A stretch of DNA of 36,955 nt from Hallerella porci (lineage in GTDB: Bacteria; Fibrobacterota; Fibrobacteria; Fibrobacterales; Fibrobacteraceae), in assembly GCF_003148885.1 (NCBI RefSeq), contig NZ_QGHD01000024.1, forward strand, positions 1-36,955, read 5' to 3'. Below the pieces are notes generated by a model. The model saw nothing but the letters and a program-made list of their open reading frames with translations. It was not told the origin of the DNA and ran no database searches. This document shows, piece by piece, positions 34,193 to 36,955 of the stretch (the first letter of the stretch is position 1; every line of letters starts with the position of its first letter). Made by a program: the position numbers and the translations under genes.

Positions 34193-34394
34193 TTACTTTT
34201 TTAAAAGATTAAGCACTTCTTGAATTGAATCACAAGCACTTTCAAATGAAATTTCTTTTATACTTTGATTTTGAAATCCTCTCCAAAAATCTTTCTTGCA
34301 TGTAATTTTGTAAAACAAGTTGACTCGTAATTCGCTTTTCTTGTGCAATTTTCTTTACCCGAGCTTTGAGTTGCATTGAATTTTTTACTGTCAT
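34193..34394 (-). pseudogene. AbiEii toxin gene remnant, internally deleted
   Basis: The start ATG (34394-34392) overlaps the antitoxin stop by 4 nt, as in AbiE operons. The first 50 codons read MTVKNSMQLKARVKKIA, then LQNYMQERFLERISKSKYKRNFI, the usual opening of AbiEii nucleotidyltransferases, then a TGA (34244-34242). The catalytic core that normally follows (KGG...) is absent. Another frame continues KEISFESACDSIQEVLNLLKK to a TAA at 34193, which looks like an AbiEii C-terminus. So head and tail survive and the roughly 200 residues between are gone, with a frameshift at the join. Confidence 0.72.
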
Positions 34395-34984
34395 AAAAGC
34401 ACCTCTAGATAGTTCAAAATTTTAGGTTTTACTCGAAGTTTTTCTGCATATCCAATCAATTTTTGAAAATTCTTTTCTTTAGATTGCACATATTTTTTCA
34501 TCGCTTTTCCAATCAGCTGAATATTTCCATCATTTCCACGCATTATATCGCAAAGAGTTCTTTCAATATCATAAACTTTAATTTTATTTCCACTCGGAGA
34601 ATTCACCTCTGTAATTCCTAAAGAGTAATTTTTCAAAACAACTCTCTTTATAAAAATTTTTTCTTCTTTTAGAGAAGGAGTATTATAACCTTGAGGAAAT
34701 GTCATCGCGTAAACCGATGGCGTTTGATCCGAATAGCCAAATAAATAAAGCGCAGTTTCTCCCGAAAAAATGCCTCGGCTATATTTCTGTTGCAAAAGAA
34801 ACATTTCATCTTCCCACGCATTCGCTTGAACATAAATTCCTCGGGAATACGAATAAATTTCGCCCAAATCAACTAATTGCTTTAATTGTGCACGCGGTAA
34901 CCCTGCAGCCGACACTTCTGCAGTCATAAGCGTCCCATTTGTTGAACGCTTGAGCATTCGATGAATTTTATCTAAATATCCCAT
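34391..34984 (-). CDS. AbiEi-type antitoxin/transcriptional regulator
   Basis: A 197-aa type IV toxin-antitoxin antitoxin. The N-terminal winged helix (TLMTAEVSAAGLPRAQLKQLVDLGEIYSYSRGIYV) should bind DNA, and the C-terminal domain begins GIFSGETALYLFGYSDQTP, the AbiEi signature. Two ATG codons stand in tandem (34987, 34984); GAGAGG is only 2 nt from the first and 5 nt from the second, so I prefer the second. It appears intact although its toxin partner is deleted. Confidence 0.85.
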   Translation of the reverse strand: MGYLDKIHRMLKRSTNGTLMTAEVSAAGLPRAQLKQLVDLGEIYSYSRGIYVQANAWEDEMFLLQQKYSRGIFSGETALYLFGYSDQTPSVYAMTFPQGYNTPSLKEEKIFIKRVVLKNYSLGITEVNSPSGNKIKVYDIERTLCDIMRGNDGNIQLIGKAMKKYVQSKEKNFQKLIGYAEKLRVKPKILNYLEVLL

Positions 34985-34997
34985 CATTTCCTCTCAT

Positions 34998-35040
34998 TAC
35001 AATCACACATTAAATTATACAAAAATAATGTGTGGTTGTA
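34998..35040 (-). promoter_or_regulatory. abiE promoter with flanking inverted-repeat operator
   Basis: TACAATCACACATTA (34998-35012) and TAATGTGTGGTTGTA (35026-35040) are complementary at 14 of 15 positions and flank a 13-bp spacer with TATAAT on the minus strand (35019-35014). ATTACA (35042-35037) is a possible -35 at 17 bp. AbiEi proteins repress their own operon by binding such repeats. Confidence 0.8.
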
Positions 35041-35041
35041 A

Positions 35042-36355
35042 TTATTCGTTCCACGGAGGATTGATTTCTTCGGGCTTTGTTTTTAAAATGCGGTAAACGA
35101 AATAGGCGACGATGGAAGCGGTACAGCCGACTTGCAAAAACGGGAAAAATGTTTTGATACAAAACAGATAAACGAGATTGTAAAGTTGATACGCCGAATC
35201 GTAATCGAAGAGAATCGTTGCGATAAAAAGTTGTAAAGGCGAATAAGTCGCAAGGAAATGCGGCAAAAGCTGCGCTAAAAATAAAGCCATCAAAATCAAC
35301 TTCGCTTTTTGCGAAGCTAAAAAATAACCGCGGTCAAATAATGTGAGAGAAAAGAGAACGACTAAAGGACAGAGCAAAACAAAATCGTGATCCGAGCAAT
35401 AAGTGATAATCGGATAAAAGACGAGAACCGGCGCAATTTGAATCCACGGCGAAGGCGATTTGCGGAATAGATAACAAAGAGTTCCGCAAGCACTTGCGCA
35501 AAGAATCATCCAAACGATACGTCCCGTCGGTCCAAACCACAAAACCAATTTTCGCACGAGTATAAAGTTTAAATTGCTCGCTTCTAAATAAGGCGCGCCC
35601 ATTTTCGGAATAAGCAAAATCAAATCGATCGGCGATTCATGTAAAACGTATGCCGGCCAAAGAGTCGCTAAAATACAAATTCCCAAAGCGATTCCGATGC
35701 TTTTCCATTTCTGCGAAAAGAGGAGCGGGAAAATAAAAAGTCCACCCACTTGCGGTTTGATAAGTAAAATCGCCCAAGCAATTCCTAGTAAAATTTGCTT
35801 GTCCCGTTTTAATGCATAGCAAAAAGCAAACATCGCAACGAGCAAAAGCGGACTATAATTCATCACGCAAATGACTCGCAGATAAGGATATAAAATAACC
35901 ACAACGAGCATTTCCCAAAATAAAACGCGATCTAAAATCGCAGAGGGTTCCCACCGCGACAAATACCGCAACAAGAAAAAGAGAATCGCTAAATAGACGA
36001 AAAGTAAAATTCCTGCGCAAACGACAGTCGGCAAATAGGCATACCACCAAAAAAGCGTAAAATGCCAAGGCGGATAAAAATGCACATATTCTTGTTTGCC
36101 GTTACAATTCGAAGGCATATCAGGACGGCTCAGCCCGCAATATTTTTCATGCTCCATTTCATGATTCCAAACATAAAACGGATTGATTCCCTCGCGCACT
36201 AAACTAATTTCATTATGTCGAAATCCAATATCACAATAATCAAACGGCAACGCTGCAATTTTCGGCAAAGCTGTATTATAAAAAATCACCCCGAGCAACA
36301 CGGCAAAGATGATTTTAACAATCGAATTTCTGTTTCTTTTTATAAAATTTGCCAC
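35042..36355 (-). CDS. GT87-like integral membrane glycosyltransferase
   Basis: A 437-aa polytopic membrane protein with about ten hydrophobic helices. The loop after the first helix contains DIGFRHNEISLVREGINPFYVW (acidic residue in the GT-C position) and YPPWHFTLFWWYAYLP; ILLIKPQVGGLFIFPLLF is the KPQ signature of the GT87/DUF2029 family, which use polyprenyl-phosphate sugars as donors. GTG start with GGAG about 10 nt upstream. Its last 275 bp of plus-strand DNA (35058-35332) recur at the window end. Confidence 0.75.
   Translation of the reverse strand: MANFIKRNRNSIVKIIFAVLLGVIFYNTALPKIAALPFDYCDIGFRHNEISLVREGINPFYVWNHEMEHEKYCGLSRPDMPSNCNGKQEYVHFYPPWHFTLFWWYAYLPTVVCAGILLFVYLAILFFLLRYLSRWEPSAILDRVLFWEMLVVVILYPYLRVICVMNYSPLLLVAMFAFCYALKRDKQILLGIAWAILLIKPQVGGLFIFPLLFSQKWKSIGIALGICILATLWPAYVLHESPIDLILLIPKMGAPYLEASNLNFILVRKLVLWFGPTGRIVWMILCASACGTLCYLFRKSPSPWIQIAPVLVFYPIITYCSDHDFVLLCPLVVLFSLTLFDRGYFLASQKAKLILMALFLAQLLPHFLATYSPLQLFIATILFDYDSAYQLYNLVYLFCIKTFFPFLQVGCTASIVAYFVYRILKTKPEEINPPWNE
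35058..35332 (-). repeat. 275-bp direct repeat, copy 1
   Basis: Identical over its whole length to 36681-36955 (offset 1623 bp). It encodes the C-terminal end of the GT87 protein except the last few residues. Confidence 0.97.
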
Positions 36356-36661: not shown

Positions 36662-36955
36662 TTAAAATTTTTTCCACAACGGATTGATTTCTTCGGGCTT
36701 TGTTTTTAAAATGCGGTAAACGAAATAGGCGACGATGGAAGCGGTACAGCCGACTTGCAAAAACGGGAAAAATGTTTTGATACAAAACAGATAAACGAGA
36801 TTGTAAAGTTGATACGCCGAATCGTAATCGAAGAGAATCGTTGCGATAAAAAGTTGTAAAGGCGAATAAGTCGCAAGGAAATGCGGCAAAAGCTGCGCTA
36901 AAAATAAAGCCATCAAAATCAACTTCGCTTTTTGCGAAGCTAAAAAATAACCGCG
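36662..36955 (-). CDS. Second GT87-like gene, 3' part only
   Basis: The last 97 codons of a second membrane glycosyltransferase, open at the window edge. From RGYFLASQKAKL to EEINP it is identical to the neighbouring GT87 protein; only the tail differs (LWKKF against PWNE). Either a tandem duplicate with a conserved 3' end, a truncated copy, or an assembly repeat at the sequence end. Confidence 0.7.
   Translation of the reverse strand, partial: RGYFLASQKAKLILMALFLAQLLPHFLATYSPLQLFIATILFDYDSAYQLYNLVYLFCIKTFFPFLQVGCTASIVAYFVYRILKTKPEEINPLWKKF
36681..36955 (-). repeat. 275-bp direct repeat, copy 2 (cut by the window end)
   Basis: Identical to 35058-35332. The repeat reaches the last base of the window, so its true length is unknown. 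Confidence 0.97.

Follow-up and report, generated by a model that had tools for sequence, protein, structure and literature searches.

An orphan AbiEi antitoxin gene in Hallerella porci, beside a toxin gene apparently lost through a repeat-bounded deletion

The AbiE locus near one end of a Hallerella porci contig (NZ_QGHD01000024.1) raises the question of how an antitoxin gene and its operator came to stand beside a toxin gene that is no longer whole, and of whether the antitoxin is now kept for some use or is simply left over. The window, i.e. the whole stretch of DNA that was analysed, is 36,955 nt long and is one entire contig of a 78-contig draft. Its relevant features are:

34391..34987, minus strand: abiEi, the antitoxin/autorepressor gene, intact, 198 aa, encoding a winged-helix N-terminal domain and a C-terminal antitoxicity domain
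34193..34394, minus strand: remnant of the abiEii toxin gene, 202 nt left from an inferred 846-nt gene
34242..34394, minus strand: toxin head, 50 codons, the last three encoding NFI, followed by TGA
34196..34252, minus strand: toxin tail, ISFESACDSIQEVLNLLKK, in a shifted frame, with its TAA at 34195-34193
34245..34252, minus strand: deletion join, the 8-bp ATTTCATT common to head and tail
35026..35042, minus strand: putative operator arm 1, ATTACAACCACACATTA, overlapping a -35-like ATTACA
34996..35012, minus strand: putative operator arm 2, TAATGTGTGATTGTAAT, pairing with arm 1 at 16 of 17 positions across a 13-nt spacer
35014..35019, minus strand: -10-like TATAAT, between the operator arms

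The antitoxin gene is intact, as an earlier note on this DNA had proposed. Its 198-residue product matches the PADLOC AbiEi model PDLC02225 (E=2e-63), a PDB profile search leads to S. agalactiae AbiEi (6y8q, E=3e-37), and an AlphaFold model (mean pLDDT 82) has the same entry as its top PDB match (Foldseek E=4e-15); the winged-helix N terminus and antitoxicity C terminus of COG5340/AbiEi are recognised both by profile and by fold. The order is bicistronic, antitoxin first, and the toxin ATG at 34394 does overlap the AbiEi TGA, in an ATGA at 34391-34394, as had also been described. With AbiEi intact and the adjacent cognate toxin non-functional, the gene is an orphan, or solitary, antitoxin. It is altered at 4 of 68 near-invariant positions, slight damage that is compatible with either retention or a young deletion.

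The putative operator, which lies upstream of abiEi at 34996-35042 and has the form ATTACAACCACACATTA-N13-TAATGTGTGATTGTAAT with the TATAAT within the spacer, is homologous to that of relatives with an intact toxin, e.g. TTGACAATCACACATTAT-N11-ATAATGTGTGATTGTCAA on Vescimonas fastidiosa pMM35_01 (L100); a locus with a truncated toxin (L120) has the same arms as L100. The core is the same as in intact relatives, and the outer bases differ from theirs in both arms with the palindrome preserved. An inverted repeat so placed at the promoter would suit autoregulation. The earlier statement that the operator is intact thus stands, but its location does not, the repeats lying just outside the interval 34193-34987 in which it had been placed.

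It is in the toxin gene that the damage lies. Head codons 1-50 align with positions 6-54 of the AbiEii model PDLC02288 (E=3e-15), in agreement with the roughly 50 N-terminal codons reported at the outset. The tail scores 23.4 bits against a C-terminal profile built from 51 intact toxins, a score that was equalled in none of 100,000 shuffles, and the runner-up in a six-frame search of the 37-kb window reaches 1.8 bits (more than 21 bits lower); similarity to AbiEii C termini, the lack of which would have told against the earlier reading, is therefore present. The tail is frameshifted, as had been claimed, but consists of 19 codons plus the stop and not of about 21.

The toxins of Subdoligranulum variabile (L099) and of L100, each of 281 codons, align gap-free with both head and tail of the remnant, and the length bookkeeping leaves 846 - 202 = 644 bp missing, so that the frame is shifted. 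In both intact genes the join sites read AAT TTC ATT CTC and GAT ATT TCC TTT, i.e. ATTTCATT and ATTTCCTT, which in the window are merged into a single ATTTCATT (34252-34245); these are the approximately eight shared bases that had been noticed before, and at a random join a shared run of 8 bases would be expected with a probability of ~5e-4 (about 5 per 10,000). The lengths fit exactly and the intact relatives carry an almost perfect version of the repeat, which supports the earlier suggestion of a deletion between short direct repeats; the toxin was lost through a 644-bp, out-of-frame deletion, most likely between the two copies of the 8-bp repeat. The deletion took away codons 51 to 262 (about 212 codons) of the 281-codon reference, among them KGG, DxD and, farther on, conserved D and K residues, and every catalytic motif among AbiEii nucleotidyltransferase motifs I-IV is gone; such motifs are required for GTP binding and toxicity of S. 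agalactiae AbiEii (PMC3985639). Farther upstream in the second frame of the remnant, DFWRGFQNQSIKE resembles the AbiEii C-terminal motif DFWRRF and would imply an earlier join; this reading was rejected because its spacing to the tail is two residues off and the head profile clearly reaches NFI over the same bases.

The head is 67% identical to intact toxins, compared with 81-89% for intact loci whose AbiEi has diverged to a similar extent, and of 40 conserved positions it differs at 8, a number that almost no intact toxin reaches; this greater divergence fits relaxed constraint, or drift, on a remnant. It also counts against the head being a functional short protein or a regulatory leader, a role for which its open frame in register with AbiEi might be cited and which is very improbable, given that every intact relative reads through the head into the full toxin. 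A conserved 50-codon gene in relatives, which was to have overturned the earlier interpretation, was not found among the loci examined, the relatives having a 281-codon toxin. Hardly any credence can be given, likewise, to the deletion being an artefact of draft assembly with the toxin really intact: the draft is in 78 contigs and the window is one entire contig, but the homology at the join is exact over 8 bp, the length is as expected, the join lies 2.7 kb from the contig end, the head has drifted, and no second AbiE or other AbiEii piece was found elsewhere in the genome.

The operon as a whole is likely to have been imported horizontally, as its nearest relatives in Bacillota, its low GC content, the different gene after gltD in congeners and the mobile context in Vescimonas all suggest. 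A phylum-wide search found no AbiEi more than 44% identical to that of the window, and plasmid and genome searches found AbiEi 55-62% identical in gut Bacillota (Hornefia, Subdoligranulum, Vescimonas), the figure being 57-62% for the intact relatives; it was alignment-based search that recovered these relatives, single-protein peptide-pattern searches genome-wide giving no match. The L099 and L100 operons resemble that of the window in their homologous operator, in the same 281-codon toxin frame and in an AbiEi 57-59% identical to that of the window, but differ in that their toxin is intact, that they belong to another phylum and that one stands beside mobilisation genes. That one, the Vescimonas copy, adjoins MobC, relaxase and transposon-transfer genes, and conjugative plasmids make up 377 of the 548 plasmid records with a match. 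GC content is 0.347 for AbiEi and 0.288 for the remnant, whereas the window as a whole has 0.45 and the neighbouring gltD 52%. Two congeners (G098 and G102) have a different gene 3' of gltD, by eye a putative metallophosphoesterase; an exact empty site was not found among the congeners, the other three of which have no gltD match. At the contig end, the last 284 bases (36672-36955) are 98.9% identical to 35049-35332, the 3' end of a membrane-protein (probable glycosyltransferase) gene at 35042-36355, and may represent either a partial duplication in tandem or a repeat at which the contig broke off.

The locus is thus very probably an imported AbiE operon, the toxin of which was killed by a single repeat-bounded 644-bp deletion, with AbiEi left over. 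A type IV AbiE operon, kin to those of gut Bacillota, would have been acquired horizontally; slippage during replication, or end-joining, at the 8-bp direct repeats would have deleted 644 bp in a single event and so destroyed the toxin, stripping every nucleotidyltransferase motif and shifting the frame; and AbiEi would have survived because antitoxin-first loss is harmful and toxin-first loss is not. Production of AbiEi presumably continues at a low level, held down by its own repression, and the protein might neutralise a related AbiEii arriving from outside, provided that its C-terminal domain functions like that of S. agalactiae AbiEi.

Toxin-antitoxin biology predicts that the toxin is lost first, as the reverse order is harmful, and toxin-first loss is the default in the AbiE gene family. 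In Fibrobacteraceae, the host's family, 22 of 62 distinct AbiEi loci, the window included, no longer have a whole toxin, the gene being internally deleted, truncated or missing altogether. Conversely, a toxin profile search in the same family finds AbiEi directly upstream of 38 of 39 strong near-full-length toxins (toxin and AbiEi lists being matched by eye), and the remaining one begins 188 bp from a contig end; antitoxin loss with the toxin kept was not seen among these 39 intact toxins. A mostly-Bacillota sample of 85 loci has the toxin intact in 51 and not intact in 34, the latter including nine with a frameshift or nonsense codon only, which may be sequencing errors, one cut by a contig end (L111) and one that is a distant second AbiEi (L164b). 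A second Bacillota sample covers 348 genomes of one family, that of Fusicatenibacter; among the 100 AbiEi loci listed for it, a full-length toxin is next in 63, a partial one in 6, a contig edge in 1 and none (E 1e-30) in 30, a class that is possibly inflated by divergent toxins or contig ends, such that 36 of the 100 listed are without a full toxin. Since roughly one in three related loci has suffered loss of this kind, the window is a clear but ordinary example of the death of a toxin-antitoxin pair. The counts also suggest that about a third of the AbiEi genes of these gut bacteria lack an adjacent full-length toxin, and AbiE calls made from AbiEi alone therefore overstate the number of working systems.

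The broken loci show several further patterns. By inspection, the 3' break points of the toxins appear to cluster within the last 40 codons. The join of the toxin deletion is identical within each of two pairs, L005/L008 and L041/L042, though the AbiEi of L008, L041 and L042 (L005 being the exception) is closer to that of an intact-toxin locus than to that of the pair partner, a pattern that suggests either that the deleted allele has moved by recombination or that the same spot has been deleted more than once. In L017 and L034, by comparison with L018, the entire toxin is precisely excised, from the antitoxin stop to a terminator-like hairpin, and joined at an A run. In L176 and L178 the toxin has a frameshift in the poly-G tract of the KGG codons, where slippage or phase variation is possible. 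Doubled operons also occur: L033 (G035:C73:107500-114500) has tandem AbiE operons, one toxin being intact and the other carrying a nonsense codon, and a Hornefia butyriciproducens isolate has two near-identical AbiE operons (L103 and L104) ~6.4 kb apart on one contig, one intact and the other frameshifted in the toxin.

Evidence of selection on an orphan AbiEi comes from a separate toxin-less lineage of four metagenome-assembled genomes with different names (L161, L163, L165 and L166), in which the toxin is reduced to an MQLKK stub in the same flank; the common stub and flank make the toxin loss look shared. The most distant AbiEi pair of this lineage has 3 nonsynonymous to 16 synonymous changes (omega ~0.05; P ~5e-8 under neutrality), and its orphan AbiEi is under purifying selection. 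Other pairs of broken loci have omega near 0.1, though a large share of this divergence may have arisen before the toxin was lost. For the AbiEi of the window pairwise dN/dS is unusable, because synonymous sites are saturated in its nearest homologues.

The AbiEi of the window is now probably a neutral or nearly neutral leftover heading to loss; its active retention, for anti-addiction or regulation, is the main alternative and has a lesser, if appreciable, chance of being correct. Anti-addiction and decay were also the two possibilities named in the earlier note. Tentatively, it may be kept as an anti-addiction gene that neutralises the AbiEii of incoming plasmids or conjugative transposons and so lets them be lost harmlessly, a role that has been proposed for Klebsiella orphan antitoxins (PMC7192599). 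The presence of related AbiE operons on mobile elements, the undamaged state of AbiEi and its operator, and the purifying selection in the L161 lineage are all consistent with such a role, but a recent deletion would give the same picture, and in the L161 lineage other genes follow AbiEi, which could have another role there. That AbiEi has turned into a transcription regulator of other genes is improbable: AbiEi is a DNA-binding autorepressor (PMC3985639), and a Mesorhizobium AbiEi mutant alters the expression of many genes (PMC8436566), but the genes neighbouring the window AbiEi give no hint of such a role. It is doubtful, too, whether solitary AbiEi proteins in general make up a common line of defence, maintained by selection, against AbiE-armed mobile elements. 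On that view toxin deletion would have been adaptive again and again, making immunity genes out of addiction modules, and the imported operon of the window would be a case in point. Beyond the leftover reading preferred for the window, the L161 lineage makes the purpose of an orphan AbiEi directly testable.

Orphan antitoxins, including type IV groups, and the suggestion of anti-addiction have already been published (PMC7192599, PMC10790755), and orphans of an AbiE-like antitoxin have been noted in Mycoplasma mycoides (PMC8562856). A literature search of partial coverage found no paper that counts AbiE toxin loss or resolves such a lesion. Toxin loss with the antitoxin kept is thus a known phenomenon, of which the window is a new and well-resolved case; it gives a clean molecular view of the disarming of an addiction module, in which one repeat-bounded deletion spared the antitoxin.

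Among known systems, S. agalactiae AbiE (PMC3985639) is like that of the window in gene order, stop/start overlap, AbiEi fold, promoter inverted repeats, and AbiEii head and tail. By contrast, the window toxin is without the catalytic motifs and some 212 codons, and the repeats differ in layout, S. agalactiae AbiE having two 23-bp repeats 3 bp apart and the window 17-bp arms with a 13-nt spacer; in this regard the window resembles the M. tuberculosis Rv2827c promoter, where the gap is 13 bp, and not that of S. agalactiae, where it is 3 bp (PMC7319586). The orphans of Klebsiella pneumoniae, E. coli and Mycoplasma mycoides (PMC7192599, PMC10790755, PMC8562856) share with the window an antitoxin without a working toxin. 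Unlike in those cases, the lesion in the window can be resolved to a 644-bp, repeat-bounded deletion, and is set within a wider count of AbiEi loci.
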